This document shows positions 17,691-27,120 of a stretch of 64,000 nt of DNA, piece after piece. The position numbers and the translations under genes were made by a program. Source of the stretch: Lysobacteraceae bacterium NML07-0707 (GTDB taxonomy: Bacteria; Pseudomonadota; Gammaproteobacteria; Xanthomonadales; Xanthomonadaceae); contig NWQT01000011.1 of the NCBI GenBank assembly GCA_002798295.1, positions 1 to 64,000 on the forward strand, written 5' to 3'. The stretch's first letter is position 1; every line of letters begins with the position of its first letter. The notes under the pieces are model-generated. The model did not search any database. It was not told the origin of the DNA and saw only the letters and a program-made list of their open reading frames with translations.

Positions 17691-17703
17691 GGGCTTTGCC
17701 TGT

Positions 17704-18015
17704 TTGCCCTGTTCTGGCGTGCCGAGTACCACAGCGGCCAATGGGAGAAGGCAGGGCATGTTTGAGCAGCGCACAGCGATGCGAGTTTGCCCTGCCGCCA
17801 TTGGCCGCGAGGAACGCAGGGCACCCCGCGTAGCGGGGCGCGTCAGCCAGGGCAGATTCTTTGCCTCCTTTCTTTTAAAGAAAGGAGGTGCGCTGCCGGG
17901 CGCATATCCCGGCATTGAGCGTATGGCAATGGCTGAAATCATTTCGAGCATGGCGGGGCAGGTCAGATCGTTCGGGCGCTATTTATTGGCTGCTCGGCGC
18001 CTCAGAACAGGGCGG
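17704..18015. repeat. TIR-bounded structured repeat element, copy A
   Basis: This fills most of the 405-bp gap between rng and yhdP. Its ends are imperfect inverted repeats (17704-17726 and 17993-18015; 18 of 23 positions pair, including the shared core GCCCTGTTCTG). Positions 17706-17917 closely match the reverse complement of copy B (about 23604-23816). Inside are several hairpins: GGCAGGGCA/TGCCCTGCC, CCCCGC-GTA-GCGGGG (17824-17838), CCTCCTTTCTTT/AAAGAAAGGAGG (17864-17888) and GCCGGG/CCCGGC. The remaining 80 bp up to the right end differ from copy B. Short open frames here are not conserved and I treat them as spurious. Confidence 0.8.
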
Positions 18016-18095
18016 AGAGTCAACAGCAACAGCCAACAGCAACAATCGGGCTGGCAAAGCATTGGCTGCAAGCAGCGTAAATGGAGCTGTGCCTG

Positions 18096-21000
18096 ATGCC
18101 TGATGTGCTACGGCGTAGTTTCCGCCTTGCCGGCAAATCACTCTGGTACAGCTTTGCGGTACTGGTATTGCTGCTGGTACTGGCCTATCTGGCAGCCCAG
18201 CAGGGGCTGCGCTGGCTGGAGGCAAACCCGGCACGGGTGGCGGCATGGCTCAGCCAGAAAGCCGGGCAGCCAGTGCGCTTTTCTGCCTTGAAGGCTGGCT
18301 GGACGCGGCGCGGGCCGTTACTGCAAATGTCCGGGCTTGGCCTTGGCAAGACCGATAACGCGCTTGGCATCGAACACGCCGAGCTGCTGGTGGCGGTCTA
18401 TGGCGGCTGGCTGCCGGGACGGCGCCTGACCGAGTTGCGCCTGCATGGGCTGGAATTGACGCTGGCGCAAGCCGAAGATGGCCGTTGGCAGGTGCATGGC
18501 CTGCCCGGAGAGCGGCAAGCCCGGGGCGATGCGCTGGATGATTTGCAGGCGCTGGGCGAATTGCAGGTGATACGCGGGCGGCTGCGCGTTGCGCCCAAAA
18601 GCGCCGCGACAGCCATCGTTATCCCGCGTGTGGATGTACGCTTGCAGTCGCAACAAAAACGCCTGCGGGCAGGCATTCGCGCCTGGGCCGATGAAGCCGC
18701 GAGCCCGCTCAATGCAGCACTGGATTTTGACCGCGAAACCGGCAATGGCGCGTTTTATGTCGGCGCCCGCAGGCTGGATTTGGCCGCCTGGTCGCAATGC
18801 CTCAACTGGCAGGGTGTGGCGGTGGATGGCGGTCAGGGACAGTTGCAGGCCTGGCTTGCGCTTGCCAATCACCAAGTGCAGTCGGTGAGCGCCGTGGCCG
18901 AGCTTGAAAACCTGCATCTGCGCGCGCAACACACGGTGCCCGGCGGCACCCATGAGCGGGTATTCAAGCAGTTCCAGCAACGCCTGCATTTTGCCCGTGA
19001 AGGCGATGACTGGCGCTTGCAGTTGCCGCGGCTCCGTCTGCAACAGGCAGGTCGAGAGCTGCGCATGGACGGTATCAGCGCCGAGCACAAAAACGGCCAG
19101 TGGCGGATGCACGCGCCGTATTTGCCGCTGGATAACGTGCTTGGCGTGGTCAGCCTTGCCGATGCGCTCTCGCCAGAGCTGCGGCACTGGCTGGGGCGGG
19201 CAAGGCCGCAGGGTACGCTGCGCAATATCAAGGCCTATGGACAGGCTGGCCGGCTGGACTGGCTGGAGGCCGACGCGCAGGCGCTGGGCTTTTTGCCGGT
19301 GGCCGATGCGCCGGGTTTATCCGGTGTTGGCGGCAAGATTCGTGGCGATGGTGAAGGGCTGATGTTGGAGCTGGCAGCTGATGCGCCGATGGTGTTCGAC
19401 TGGCCGCGCGGTTTTGGCATCAAGCACCCGCTCAGGGCGCGCGGTACGTTGGCGCTATGGCGCGAAGGTAATGGCTTGCGTTTTGGCAGCGGCCATCTGG
19501 ACATACAGGGTGAGGGCTATCGCGCCAGGGCGCGCGGCGGCATGTGGTTCCAGAACGATGGCACGCGGCCGTGGATTGATATCGCCGCCAATATCGACGA
19601 TGCGCAAGTGCCGGTGGCGCGCAAGTTCTGGATTCACCATCTGATGCCACGCGAGGCGGTGGACTGGCTGAACATGGCGCTGGTGGGCGGGCAGCTGAAA
19701 AACGCCCGGGCAATGGTCAGTGGTGACCTGGATGACTGGCCGTTCGACCGTAACAATGGCCGTTTCGAGGCGCTGGCCGACATCGAAAACGCGCAGCTGC
19801 GCTTTCAGAATGACTGGCCGCCGATTGAAAAAGGCAGGCTTACCGCCCGCTTTATCGCCGATGGCATGGCGGTGGAAGGCAGCGGTGTTTTGGGCGGCGT
19901 GCAGGTGGAAGCCGTCAGCGCCCGTATTGCCCGGTTTGCCGGTGGCACGCTGGAAATCGATGCACAAGGGCAGGGCGATGCAGCCCACTTCCTGGGCGTG
20001 CTGCGACAAAGCCCGCTGAACAAAACCCTGGCCGATACGCTTGCGCGTGTGGAGGCGCGCGGCAAGGCGGCCGCCAGTTTTGCGCTCAGGCAGCCGCTTT
20101 ATGCCGGCGGGCCTGCCACGCGCATTGAAGGCGAAGTCATGCTCGATGGTGCGCTACTGGGCGAGCGCGAATTGCAGCTTGCGTTTTCTGAAGTGCGCGG
20201 CAAGGCCCGTTACGACCAGAATGGCTTCCGTGCCGATGAGCTGGCCGTCCTGCATGAAGGCCATCGCGGCCATCTGGCGCTGCGCGCAGGGGCTAGTCAT
20301 GTGGAAAGTGCAAGCCATATCTTCGAAGCCAATCTGCGCGGGCGTCTGAGTGCGGAAACATTGCTTGCCCGCGCGCCGCAGTTGCAGTGGTTGCAGCCGC
20401 ACCTGCGTGGCCAGTCGCACTGGAATATTGCCGTTGCCCTGCCCGCAGGCAGTGATGCCGGCAGCGCCGTACCCAGCCAGATCGTGCTGCAAAGCGATTT
20501 GCAGGGCACGGCCATCCATCTGCCCAGCCCCCTGCAAAAACCGGCGGCGCAGGCGTTGCCATTGACCGTGCGCCTGCCGATGCCGCTGGAGGATGGCGAT
20601 GTGGAGGTGGCATTGGGGGAGCGCCTTGGATTGGTGGCGCGCAGCCGCGGTGATGCGCTGGGTATCCGCGCCACTTTTGGCAGTCACAAGGCCGATGGCG
20701 CAGCGCCCCGGCAGGGCTTGCTGGTCAATGGCCGTGCGGCGATGGTGGATGCGCTGGGCTGGGGCAGCTTGCTGGGTGGTCAAGGCAGCCCGGCCAGTGG
20801 CAGTCTCGCTCCGGTGCGTGTGGACATGCAGGCAGCACAGTTGCAGCTTCTGGGGCAGCGTTTTGCCAATACCCGTCTACAAGTACAGCGCCAGCCCAGA
20901 GCCACCCGGGTCATGGTCGAAGGCGCGCAGCTATCTGGCAGTCTTATCGTGCCCGATGCCGATGGCGCGCCACTGCAAGGGCGTTTTGCGCGCCTGTATT

Positions 21001-21908
21001 GGCAGGGCGCTGGCGTTGCCCCAGCTGAAGCGGAAGATTTCTCGCCAATCGGGCAAAGCCTGAATCCGGCGAAAATCCCGCCACTGGATATTCGCGTGGA
21101 TGATTTGCGCCTGCAAAACGGCGCCTTGGGGCAGCTGGCCTTGCAAAGTCGCAGAACCGCGACCGGGATGCGGCTCGAATCGCTGAGCATCGAGCATCCC
21201 GGGCACAGCCTGCGGCTGGCCGGCGACTGGCAGGGGCAAGCCGGGCAGGCACGCAGTGCGTTTTCCGGGCAGCTGCAAAGCCGGGACTTTGGCGCGCTTC
21301 TTTCAACGCTGGGCTTTGCCGGCAAGCTGAAACACGGCAGCGGCAAGCTGGATTTCGCGCTGGCCTGGCCGGGAGCGCCGGCGGATTTTGCTCCCGCCCG
21401 GCTACAGGGCGAAATCAGTCTGGCGGTTGAAAACGGGCAACTGCTGGAGCTTGAGCCAGGCGCCGGGCGGGTGCTGGGGCTGCTCAGCGTGGCGCGATTG
21501 CCGCAGCGCCTGAGCCTGGATTTTCGTGACTTCTTCGACAAGGGCCTTGCCTTTGACCGGATTGAAGGCAAGGTGCAGTTCGCAAACGCCAGGGCGCGGG
21601 CGGAGCACTTCAGCATCGACGGGCCGGCGGCGCGCATCGACATCAGCGGCAGTGCCGACCTTGCGACCCGGCAGTTCGACCAGACCATCGAAGTCAAGCC
21701 GCGCACCGGCAATTTGCTGCCAGCCGTGGGGGCGATTGCCGCAGGCCCGGTCGGCGCGGCGGTGGGCGCGGTTGCCAATGCGGTTCTGAATAAGCCCTTG
21801 AGCAAGGTGGGTGCCAAGACTTATCGCGTGACCGGCCCTTGGGACAACCCCAGGGTGGAGGTGCAGAGCAAGTCGCAAATGGCGGAAAAGACCCCGCCGG
21901 ATGCTTAA
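18096..21908 (+). CDS. yhdP: YhdP family AsmA-like envelope protein (DUF3971)
   Basis: A protein of about 1270 aa with one N-terminal membrane helix ([21 protein letters not shown]) and a very long periplasmic part of beta-rich repeats ending in an AsmA-like C-terminus ([33 protein letters not shown]). This matches YhdP/TIGR02099 proteins, which bridge the envelope and carry phospholipids to the outer membrane. ATG 18096 has GGAG at 9-nt spacing; the in-frame ATG at 18081 overlaps that ribosome-binding site. The gene precedes tldD as in other Xanthomonadales and Enterobacteria. Its 3' end runs close to the tldD start (46 nt). Confidence 0.92.
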
Positions 21909-21954
21909 AATCCCCTCCGGTCTTTATCCTGCGTTTTGCACGGAGTTGTATTTC

Positions 21955-23400
21955 ATGAATCAAGCCCTGAGTCTTGCCCAATCCCGTTTGCTGACCCCGG
22001 CAGGGCTGGCCATTGATGATCTTTCCCGCGCGTTTTCGCGTCTTATGGCAAGTGGCGCGGATTTTGGCGATTTGTATTTCCAGCATGCCCGTCGCGAAAG
22101 CTGGGCGATGGAAGATGGCATCGTCAAAGACGGGGCTCATGCCATTGAACAGGGCGTGGGCGTGCGCGCCATCAGCGGAGAAAAAACCGGCTTTGCCTAT
22201 TCCGGCGAGATTGATGGCGCTGCCCTGCTGGCCGCTGCCGACAGCGCCCGTGCCATCGCCCGTGGTGGCGCAGCGCTGCCGGGCGGGGTATTGGTGGCCG
22301 GAGAAAACCGCCCGGCGTTGTATGCGGCGCAAGACCCGATTGATGGCATGGCCAATGAAGCCAAGCTGGACGCCCTGCGCCGCGTGGATGGCCTGTTGCG
22401 GGCGCTTGACCCGCGGGTCAAGCAAGTGATGGTGAGCTTGTCGGGGGCGCTGGATACCGTGCTGGTCGCGCGCAGTGACGGCTTGCTCGCTGCCGATGTC
22501 CGTCCGCTGGTACGGATGAATATCCAGGTGATTGTCGAGCAAAATGGTCGCCGTGAGTCCGGCTATGCCGGTTTTGGTGGCCGTTATGGCTATCAGGCGC
22601 TTTTGGGCAGTGGGCAGCCGGAAAAATTCGCTCGCCAGGCATTGCGCCAGGCGCTTTTGAATCTGGAGGCGGTGGAGGCCCCGGCCGGCCTGATGCCGGT
22701 GGTGCTGGGCAATGGCTGGACCGGCGTGTTGTTGCACGAAGCGGTCGGGCATGGTCTGGAAGGTGACTTCAACCGCAAGGGTACCAGCACCTATGCCGGA
22801 CGCATGGGGCAGCGCGTGGCGGCACCGGGCATCACCATCGTTGATGACGGCACCCTGGCCGGGCGGCGCGGCTCGCTCAATATCGACGATGAAGGCATAC
22901 CCAGCCAGTGCACGCCGCTGATTGAAGACGGCATCCTCACCGGCTATATGCAGGACAGCTTGAACGCCCGGCTGATGGGCATGGCGCCGACCGGCAATGG
23001 CCGCCGTGAATCCTATGCGCATCTGGTGATGCCGCGCATGACCAATACTTATATGCTGGCCGGACAAGATGATCCCGAAGACATGATTCGCTCGGTCAAG
23101 CGCGGCCTGTATGCGGTCAACTTCGGCGGTGGGCAGGTGGATATCACCAGCGGCAAATATGTGTTTTCCGCCACCGAGGCATACCTGATTGAAGACGGCA
23201 AAATCACTGCCCCGGTCAAGGGCGCGACCCTGATTGGCAATGGCCCGGAAACCATGCAGAAAGTGACCATGGTGGGGCATGACCTGGCGCTGGATGAAGG
23301 CGTGGGAGTATGCGGCAAGGACGGCCAGTCGGTGCCGGTGGGTGTGGGACAGCCCTCACTGAAAATCAGCGAGCTGACCGTGGGAGGCACCCAGGCGTGA
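21955..23400 (+). CDS. tldD: Metalloprotease subunit TldD
   Basis: A 481-aa zinc protease subunit that with TldE/PmbA forms a heterodimer degrading unfolded peptides (for example in microcin B17 maturation and CcdA turnover). The HExxxH zinc site is visible as [13 protein letters not shown], followed by the [23 protein letters not shown] segment of the family. ATG 21955 ([13 protein letters not shown]) has CGGAG upstream. It is separated from pmbA by the repeat element and by darP on the other strand. Confidence 0.95.
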
Positions 23401-23477
23401 ATGCCGGGCAGCGGCGCGATACATGGCCGAAGACAGGGCAAGGCACGGTGAGGGCGCTGGTCGCGCTCCCCGGCTTG

Positions 23478-23818
23478 CCGCCCTGTTCTGCCGCGTCGAG
23501 CGCTGCAATGCAATATCAGTCATTTTCATTGACCGGCCTGAATGTACAGCTCGACGAGCTTGCGCTTCTATACCCAAAATGGCTTGAGCCTTTGTTGTAT
23601 TTTCAACGCCGGGACTGCGCCCGGCAGCGCACCCACTTTCTTTTAGAAAGAAAGTGGGCAAAGAAATCGCCCAGGCTGACGTGCCTTGCTGCGCAAGGTT
23701 CCCTGCGATCCTCGCGCCCAATGGCGGCAGGGCAAACTCGCATCGCTACGCGCTGCTCAAACATGCCCTGCCTTTTCCCATGGGGCGCTGCGGTACTCGG
23801 CACGCCAGAACAGGGCGG
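23478..23818. repeat. TIR-bounded structured repeat element, copy B (inverted)
   Basis: It lies in the gap between the tldD stop and the darP stop. Its 23-bp ends (23478-23500 and 23796-23818) are inverted repeats matching at 20 of 23 positions. The reverse complement of 23604-23816 is clearly homologous to copy A. Two inner hairpins carry different but still complementary bases: CCTTGC/GCAAGG where copy A has CCCCGC/GCGGGG, and CCCACTTTCTTT/AAAGAAAGTGGG where copy A has CCTCCTTTCTTT/AAAGAAAGGAGG. The distal 100 bp (23501-23603) are not alike. Confidence 0.8.
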
Positions 23819-23837
23819 AAAGGCAAAAGCAAACGCG

Positions 23838-24410
23838 CTATTCCGACGCTTCAACATCCATCACCGCCGCATCATCGGCTTCGCTGCCATCATCGCCATT
23901 CAACGTCTCGTGTATCAGCCGATACAGCTCGCGGAAGGCGCGCGGCGGCTTGTTACGGCGGCTCTCCTCCTGCGCATTGCGCAGCAATTGCCGCAGCCGC
24001 TGCCGGTCAGTCTCCGGGTGCCCGGCCAGGAATGCCGCCAGCACCTCATCGCCGCCTTCCAGAAGCCGCGTGCGCCAGCCCTCGGCGCGGTGCATCAGTG
24101 CCACCTGGCGGCGCGAGCCTTCACTATTGGCATCCAGCGCCTCGCGGATGGCTTCCAGCGCCTGGTCCTGTTCCTTGCGCATCTGCTTGGCCAAAAACGC
24201 CACGGCGCGCTTGCGGGCAATCGGCGAGGTGATGCGCTTGGCTTCCAGCACATGTGCTTGCAGCATTTCATCCATCGGCAATTTGGCCAGCTCTGCCTGG
24301 GTTTTTTCCACCAATACCTGCGCCAGTGCCAGCACATCCAGCGCCGCCCGGCGTTGCTCACTGCGGCTGGGAGAGAAATACTCGCCGGTTTCCTGATCGC
24401 GTCCGCGCAT
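23838..24410 (-). CDS. darP: Ribosome-associated protein DarP/YjgA (DUF615)
   Basis: A 190-aa highly charged protein. MRGRDQETGEYFSPSRSEQRRAALDVLALAQVLVE and LDANSEGSRRQVALMHRAEGWRTRLL resemble DUF615/YjgA, which binds the 50S subunit late in assembly. The acidic C-terminus (DDGSEADDAAVMDVEASE) is an extension. The start at 24410 has GAGGG upstream; the frame is open further but overlaps pmbA's 5' end. It is divergent from pmbA (39 nt), an arrangement also seen for yjgA-pmbA in E. coli. Confidence 0.93.
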   Translation of the reverse strand: MRGRDQETGEYFSPSRSEQRRAALDVLALAQVLVEKTQAELAKLPMDEMLQAHVLEAKRITSPIARKRAVAFLAKQMRKEQDQALEAIREALDANSEGSRRQVALMHRAEGWRTRLLEGGDEVLAAFLAGHPETDRQRLRQLLRNAQEESRRNKPPRAFRELYRLIHETLNGDDGSEADDAAVMDVEASE

Positions 24411-26532: not shown

Positions 26533-26790
26533 ATAGCAAGCAAAAACAGGTGCTACCGCCATTCAAAAATCAGCGAGGCTAAATTTCAACATCTTTTGCG
26601 CCTGTTTGCCATGGACTTGACCGCCACGGATGCCGTGCAGTTGTGTGGCCTTTCCGTGCGCTCGTCAATACCGTGTACCAACGTATCCGTGTCCGCCTGG
26701 CTCAAGAATGCGCTGTGCAGTCTCCGTTCTCGGGCGAGCTTGAAGCCGATGAACCCTATTTCGACCCCAAGCGTATCCGGGGCAAACGTG
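26533..26790 (+). pseudogene. IS1595-family transposase, 5' fragment with frameshift
   Basis: In one frame the sequence encodes SKNRCYRHSKISEAKFQHLL and then RLFAMDLTATDAVQLCGLSVRS. It then moves one frame to VNTVYQRIRVRLAQECAVQSPFSGELEADEPYFDPKRIRGKRG. Together these are the N-terminal zinc-ribbon/HTH and the start of the catalytic domain (ELEADE holds the first catalytic Asp) of an IS1595 (ISXO2-like) transposase. One base appears lost at RS|VN. No proper start codon is left (ATA at the expected place). The fragment stops abruptly at GKRG, where IS3-type sequence begins. Confidence 0.8.
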
Positions 26791-27120
26791 GGCCTGCCGC
26801 AGGTGCTGCGTACCGACAACGGCCCCGAGTTCCTGGGCGAAGCCTTCGTGCAGTGGGCCAAGCTCAACGGCATGTCCCTCCGCTATATCCAGCCTGGCAA
26901 GCCGAACCAGAACGCCTACATCGAACGCTTCAACCGGACGTTCCGAGAGGAGGTTCTGGATCAACACCTATTCACCCGCCTCGACGATGTGCGCGAAGCC
27001 GCCTATGGATGGATGCTCGAATACAACCAGGCGCGTCCCCACGACGCACTCGGCCATCTCACCCCCACCGAATACCGCAATCACCTCGCCGGAAGTTCTA
27101 CTTTTGAAATGTATGTTTGA
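26791..27120 (+). pseudogene. IS3-family transposase (OrfB), 3' fragment
   Basis: It begins at GLPQVLRTDNGPEFLGEAFVQWA, with the second catalytic Asp in RTDNGPEF. It continues through PGKPNQNAYIERFNRTFREEVLDQ (the catalytic Glu region) to the end of an IS3-family OrfB integrase core. The first half of OrfB and all of OrfA are missing. It is fused in frame to part of the IS1595 remnant, giving an open frame of 174 codons from 26596 that is a chimera and unlikely to be functional. Confidence 0.85.

Follow-up and report, generated by a model that had tools for sequence, protein, structure and literature searches.

A large family of folded, gene-less intergenic repeats, probably mobile and non-autonomous, represented by two copies in a Lysobacteraceae contig

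What kind of sequence leaves two similar, gene-less copies in opposite orientation on a single bacterial contig? The question is raised by a 64,000-nucleotide stretch of contig NWQT01000011.1 from Lysobacteraceae bacterium NML07-0707 (hereafter the window; the source genome is 2.39 Mb in 54 contigs, and both copies lie on the contig analysed). An initial annotation, made from the letters alone, had described stretches at 17704-18015 and, inverted, at 23478-23818 as a repeat bounded by terminal inverted repeats (TIRs), either mobile or a structural RNA. We find that both copies are probably members of a large family of intergenic repeats that are mobile, non-autonomous and folded in one strand. 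The coordinates of both stretches hold, and aligning them revealed ~215 bp of homology with divergent tails beyond it. The shared cores, with scores against a model (R2) built from family matches in other genera, are:

17706-17919, + strand: core of copy 1, in the rng-yhdP gap and in the direction of rng (164.7 bits, E = 4.7e-40; aligned with copy 2 and 44 other copies)
23602-23816, - strand: core of copy 2, in the tldD-yjgA gap and opposing tldD (161.4 bits, E = 3.2e-39)

Across the 64 kb window, a model from other genera matches exactly these two copies at E <= 0.1. A DNA search recovered 9 copies in the own genome, query included (E-values of 6.6e-81 to 4.0e-57 for the seven outside the window and 4.5e-70 for copy 2), and matched 4 of 41 genomes (the own genome, 16 congeners and 24 others), all four from one genus. 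Together these carriers, 4 of the 17 congeneric genomes with the own one included, contain 46 full copies, retained from 57 nhmmer hits on the fetched loci (span >190 positions, 100 bits; 11 partial hits dropped), and at least one extra copy, interrupted and in genome G012 (locus L144), lies outside the 46. By pattern scan, the element occurs in Lysobacteraceae bacteria NML95-0200 and NML08-0793 and in the metagenome-assembled genome S17M_Sa_36. What the copies share is a core of ~215-220 bp, preceded at its left boundary by a GCTTTTGC-type tract of variable length and ending on the right near CCCGGCNTTGA.

A protein-coding role was rejected: the lengths of the copies, taken modulo 3, cover all three classes, no single frame stays open across the 46 copies (maximum 37), and three overlapping open reading frames (ORFs) tested have no match in Pfam or NCBIfam. 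Mechanical ORF calling nonetheless renders the element as short ORFs, just the misreading that had been anticipated. In being shorter than 500 bp, multi-copy and without coding capacity, the element resembles a miniature inverted-repeat transposable element (MITE) in size and copy number.

The conserved feature is instead a fold. In an alignment of the 46 close copies (A2), RNAalifold placed 56 pairs, 12 of them with both sides changed and the pair kept; 98.2% of cells are paired, and the covariation score was 0.152 compared to 0.084 in shuffles (0 of 500 as high), while 20 of 500 shuffles had as many double-changed pairs and 38 of 500 as many pair types. For 37 family matches from other genera, fitted to the model (A3), 96.6% of cells are paired and 49 of 56 pairs show double changes; on each of five measures, 0 of 500 shuffles came as high. 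Because A3 was fitted to the model, we made a separate alignment with MAFFT only (A6; 25 sequences from 24 genera, 54% mean column identity), which yielded 39 pairs, 31 with compensatory double changes, and 900 of 962 cells paired. Its consensus energy was -51.5 compared to about 0 for column-shuffled alignments, an easy control applied to sequences that are selected for pairing because they were found with structure models. The proposal that selection keeps the fold and not a protein is supported; the stem changes on which it had rested are present in the two copies, and both stems carry double changes in A2. In copy 1, the parts of the fold are as follows (A4 is a further alignment, also fitted):

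17722-17734, + strand: 5' side of a CGAG..CGCAG-type internal loop, facing 17808-17821; unpaired letters conserved in A4, geometry putative
17808-17821, + strand: 3' side of that loop; unpaired letters conserved in A4, geometry likewise putative
17734-17808, + strand: middle arm GCGGCCAATGG/CCATTGGCCGC, in which 17734-17744 pairs with 17798-17808
17750-17796, + strand: apical arm GGCAGGGC..GCCCTGCC with cap TGTTTGAGC..GCGAGTTT, from the fold of the alignments
17824-17838, + strand: side hairpin CCCCGC-GTA-GCGGGG, the first stem of the initial annotation; 7, 18 and 13 double changes at A2 pairs 122-134, 123-133 and 124-132
17864-17888, + strand: 3' hairpin CCTCCTTTCTTT/AAAGAAAGGAGG, the second such stem; 4, 14 and 21 double changes at A2 pairs 163-191, 164-190 and 165-188
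17895-17913, + strand: last hairpin GCCGGG/CCCGGC, with double changes absent from A2 and present in A3

Overall, the conserved structure spans ~200 nt. Its long arm bears a pair of opposed CGAG/CGCAG-type internal loops and ends in a TGTYTGAGC..GCGAGTT cap; a side hairpin and, toward the 3' end, two more hairpins complete it. Stems vary and unpaired letters are kept, namely GCCGAG.A.CGCAG opposite CGAG.AGCGCAGGG, and TGTYTGAGC..GCGAGTT; these motifs can be read as putative tandem sheared G-A pairs and a kink-turn-like cap. A variant in G383 (L215, L216 and L217) keeps only the central arm (model positions 16-128), atop a perfect-looking stem of ~25 bp.

The two strands are not equivalent. With pairs whose commonest form is G-U excluded, G-U cells on the given strand outnumber A-C cells ~2.5:1 (52:21 in A2, 74:27 in A3 and 68:27 in A4), and by position the ratios are 21:8, 24:8 and 26:9, with sign-test P values of 0.024, 0.007 and 0.006 that are optimistic because of shared ancestry and, for A3 and A4, because of fitting. 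This excess indicates that one strand is the folded one. Together with the strong covariation and conserved unpaired motifs, it is also what a host structured-RNA family would display, one transcribed and acting in trans or as 3' untranslated-region modules (for example, through a loop-bound protein), with spread secondary. We regard such a family as unlikely, given that 13 of 17 congeners lack the element at the search sensitivity used, that a promoter-like match is absent from the 521 bp around copy 1 and that five shared sites hold the element in opposite orientations, as described below.

Placement relative to genes bears on a different function. By a rough ORF rule, 16 of the 46 copies lie between convergent genes, 13 between tandem genes in the element's direction and 8 against it, and 5 between divergent genes, with 4 unassigned; the rule errs, scoring window copy 2 as tandem although tldD and its downstream gene converge. 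Convergent gaps being the largest class, and two terminator-like matches occurring near copy 1 compared to 0.5 expected, a terminator or messenger-RNA stability module selected at gene ends might be considered. The structure is far larger than a terminator and carries conserved unpaired motifs, and placement at gene ends is equally expected from insertion tolerance, which makes this explanation very improbable.

Indications of mobility come from comparing orthologous sites. Two stretches of the window are missing from two element-free congeners:

17691-18095, no strand: absent from G003 and G011, where the predicted yhdP start codon lies 3 bp past the rng stop
23403-23837, no strand: from the tldD stop to the predicted end of the convergent downstream gene, absent from G003 and G011

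At rng-yhdP, the element lies in the direction of rng in the own genome (G000) and in G012 and is inverted in G009, where the end sequence facing yhdP is the same; the rng contig of G001 stops at this point, and a copy at L067:7712-7916 has a G009-like yhdP-side flank that fits the G009 orientation. At tldD-yjgA, the element runs against tldD in G000 and G012 and with tldD in G001 and, bearing an internal deletion, in G009. The element-free congeners (L146 and L147, compared to 23395-23870) are almost gapless here, so the whole intergenic region downstream of tldD is acquired DNA in the window. G001 has the orientation opposite to the others at two further shared sites, and L080 of G009 and L068 of G001 also differ in orientation, with ~1 kb of extra DNA in G001, bringing the shared sites with opposite orientations to five. 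At the rng-yhdP and L075/L006 sites, both orientations are bordered by the end sequence GAACAGGGC.. with an AAAGC-type tract, a pattern compatible with in-place inversion. Five sites occupied only in G012 are empty in all orthologs aligned: L057 and L058 in G000 and G001, L062 and L065 in G000, G001 and G009, and L063 in G009 only; the empty L057 site already has REP-like repeats (REP, repetitive extragenic palindrome). The two window sites were filled by insertion, probably followed by inversion in place. Of the two options left by the initial annotation, empty sites and opposite orientations favor the mobile element, and from the structural-RNA option the folding of one strand survives. Separately, the G012 copy at tldD-yjgA (L144, about 690-955) contains a different palindromic repeat of ~260 bp, with ends TTAGAGCCTG..CAGGCTCTTAG, in its 3' hairpin loop; this second repeat also lies after rng in G001, where the contig runs out (L267, from about 1990 onward).

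Copies could also have spread passively, by homologous recombination or gene conversion between flanking REP-like repeats, with no enzyme of their own. Many G012 copies lie between same-orientation GTCATTCTGCG..CGCAGAAT repeats, direct arrays occur in that genome, and a REP-like palindrome lies 24-47 bp downstream of 20 of the 46 copies and at 179 bp in one more. The other 25 copies, including both in the window, lack such a repeat within 320 bp downstream, none occurs in the window at up to 2 mismatches, and the inverted dimers of other genera need no flanking repeats; we therefore consider passive spread decidedly unlikely. The copies at L057, L058, L062, L063 and L065 of G012 sit within mosaics of two kinds of palindrome, GTCATTCTGCG..CGCAGAAT and CCTGCGACT..GCGCAGGGTGAC, similar to CGTC-type REPs, yet no Y1 (tyrosine transposase) gene was found in G012.

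The ends of the window copies and the pairing of copies elsewhere suggest what the moving unit might be. Four inverted ends were located:

17704-17726, + strand: left inverted end of copy 1, 18 of 23 positions identical to the reverse complement of 17993-18015, by eye
17993-18015, - strand: right inverted end of copy 1, which recurs at the orthologous site of G012 (L268) and, next to the inverted core, in G009 (L269)
23796-23818, - strand: 5' inverted end of copy 2, 20 of 23 positions identical to the reverse complement of 23478-23500, by eye
23478-23500, + strand: far inverted end of copy 2, from sequence comparison

The description as TIR-bounded holds for few copies: the right inverted end CAGAACAGGGCG is exact in only 4 of the 46 copies (both window copies, L050 and L072) and within two substitutions in 9, among which L075 looks genuine by context. 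This right end resembles the residual 5' end of a partner in inverted orientation, and that of copy 1 (17993-18015) is probably such a remnant. Inverted partners are present in other genera, where a second copy lies within 300 bp in 11 of 26 loci (7 head-to-head and 4 tail-to-tail) and in 10 of 19 further loci (all head-to-head), giving 21 pairs in 45 best-scoring loci, of which 17 are head-to-head, 4 tail-to-tail and none tandem. Four dimer units of ~530 bp recur in G393 at 84-100% identity. The window copies, which each have a 23-bp inverted end outside the core, would be compatible with tail-to-tail dimers that have decayed.

If the family is mobile, the form recognized by an enzyme acting in trans would be the single strand in its folded state, either a transcript or DNA that is transiently single-stranded, inverted dimers would be the moving unit, and the window copies would be decayed dimers in which a 23-bp end is left of the partner; after insertion, recombination between inverted ends could flip the segment. 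The element would then work like a MITE or a REP dimer.

Several observations weigh against this reading. No clean target-site duplication was found at the empty sites compared, where boundaries are blurred. A shared end sequence is not obvious at the L070/L003 site, and opposite orientations could alternatively reflect separate insertions at a favored site. All nine G000 copies share a site with a G012 copy (eight by their flanks, L004/L066 on one side only, and the ninth by the tldD-yjgA comparison), so most copies of the genus are old and present activity is unsupported. The loci that yielded dimers include several from one genus (g43) and are not a random sample, and in the window genus whole inverted dimers were not seen, G012 having same-orientation arrays (L053, L054, L056 and L059). 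Finally, partial searches beside the copies found no autonomous partner or transposase.

Those searches covered 84 of 102 flanking ORFs plus one of L186, and matched 98 Pfam families; among the 25 listed there is no transposase and none occurs in more than three members, and a lone transposase could hide among the remaining 73, because these match one member each. An inverted-end pattern with up to 2 mismatches found no inward-facing pair 0.5-5 kb apart in four genomes. One candidate autonomous copy, in G393, was rejected: the gene in the 1.4 kb that separates two hairpin pieces there reads like a secreted or anchored protein. Orphan ORFs of 261 aa (L170, 680-1465) and 143 aa (L186, 1649-2080) each lie between the two elements of a head-to-head pair ~1 kb apart, and the 261-aa ORF has no Pfam match. 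In the window itself, an ORF at 26596-27120 is, from its translation, presumably the C-terminal part of an IS3-type transposase.

Movement by a Y1 tyrosine transposase, as in REP/RAYT-type elements or TIRtrons, would have a precedent in that the commonest REP-family dimers are head-to-head, as PMC3733652 reports, and the Y1 family PF01797 is present in 208 of 297 family genomes. Its distribution does not follow the element: PF01797 occurs in 82 of 109 carriers compared to 126 of 188 non-carriers (Fisher P = 0.15), and in the window genus it was found in 0 of 4 carriers and 4 of 13 non-carriers. Moreover, 0 of 40 Y1 loci of carrier genomes hold the element (E <= 0.1; ~2 kb on each side, some clipped by contig ends). 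We accordingly hold a Y1-moved element to be highly unlikely.

How far does the family extend? The initial annotation had looked to Xanthomonadales; copies occur there, and the family reaches far beyond. Model R1, built from A2, matched 109 of 297 family genomes (27 of 54 genera), and R2, built from A3, matched 104 of 369 genomes of the class (Gammaproteobacteria; 83 of 272 genera) and 46 of 299 genomes in a phylum sample, including 18 from outside the class that all belong to family f210 and score more weakly. Scoring was confined to 6 to 8 candidates per genome, so copy numbers are minimum values and some weak carriers may have escaped. As a specificity check, 174,827 bases from 40 other loci in carrier genomes were searched, with 0 matches at E <= 0.1.

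Among plasmids, the window copy as query had no match, and other copies as queries matched a Variovorax paradoxus megaplasmid with two copies head to head (132.5 and 125.4 bits), a partial copy in Comamonas and hairpins only. The 3' hairpin pieces alone match plasmids of Caballeronia, Paraburkholderia, Pasteurella, Chitinibacter and the fusobacterium Ilyobacter, among others, and such short matches may be convergent; the plasmid of Ilyobacter polytropus (L184, 2498-2545) has the TTTCTTTGGTTACTTTCTTTG hairpin only, the other parts of the element being absent. Phages yielded no match, and two exact patterns had zero matches in viral contigs.

In Rfam 15, the window matched only a transfer RNA elsewhere and nothing at the element, and at permissive E-values the region of copy 1, a set of 7 loci and a set of 12 loci gave only matches below the gathering score. 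Membership was therefore rejected for two microRNA families (on copy 1), radC (once, 25.4 bits with a gathering score of 40) and TwoAYGGAY (once), as well as for SorX and others, matched in flanks or spacers. Within open-licence PubMed Central (PMC) literature, conserved strings retrieved only unrelated papers, and searches by topic retrieved none recognized as a description of the element. A more specific proposal, which we advance tentatively, is a class-wide, uncatalogued mobile element that would travel as inverted dimers and be mobilized by a non-Y1 enzyme system; its moving or recognized form would be a large single strand folded with conserved motifs of tertiary type, namely paired CGAG/CGCAG loops and a kink-turn-like cap.

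Known repeats share some features with the element and differ in others. Correia elements of Neisseria (NEMIS/CREE) are likewise gene-less, intergenic, multi-copy and 204 bp long, with inversion reported, and differ in having TIRs as a rule and RNase III and promoter functions, according to PMC10969869; the element here, with its right end exact in 4 of 46 copies and a branched class-wide fold, is set apart from them by description only. REPs and REPINs (GTAG and CGTC types) are also intergenic and often form head-to-head dimers, and CGTC families are described as lacking a dedicated transposase (both from PMC3733652). REPs, however, are single palindromes of 20-40 bp, whereas each arm of this element is ~200 bp with several helices; we found neither a GTAG- or CGTC-ended palindrome of 20-40 bp nor an association with Y1 (RAYT/TIRYT) genes, and mainly head-to-head dimers in other genera (17 of 21 pairs) and not in the window genus. 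ERIC of enterobacteria and bcr1 of Bacillus cereus are intergenic folded repeats classed as MITEs and named in PMC3733652 and PMC10969869; unlike ERIC, the element, with the Variovorax copy rather than the window copy as query, matches none of 20,395 Escherichia coli records. BRE of Betaproteobacteria is GC-rich, intergenic and multi-copy in Bordetella and Comamonadaceae, but about 90 bp long and tandem with little or no spacing, according to PMC3110155, and is set apart by description only. Because the searches yielded neither an autonomous partner nor a clear target duplication, because no Rfam match reaches its gathering score and because two REP features fail, we claim membership in no named family.

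If the family is what it appears to be, about 28% of sampled class genomes (104 of 369) carry a folded repeat absent from Rfam, and the element would offer family libraries a deeply covarying structure. It also raises the question of what moves or recognizes a 200-nt folded repeat that lacks an adjacent transposase, a question that is testable because, among a few Lysobacteraceae genomes, shared sites are already seen in the filled, the empty and the flipped state.

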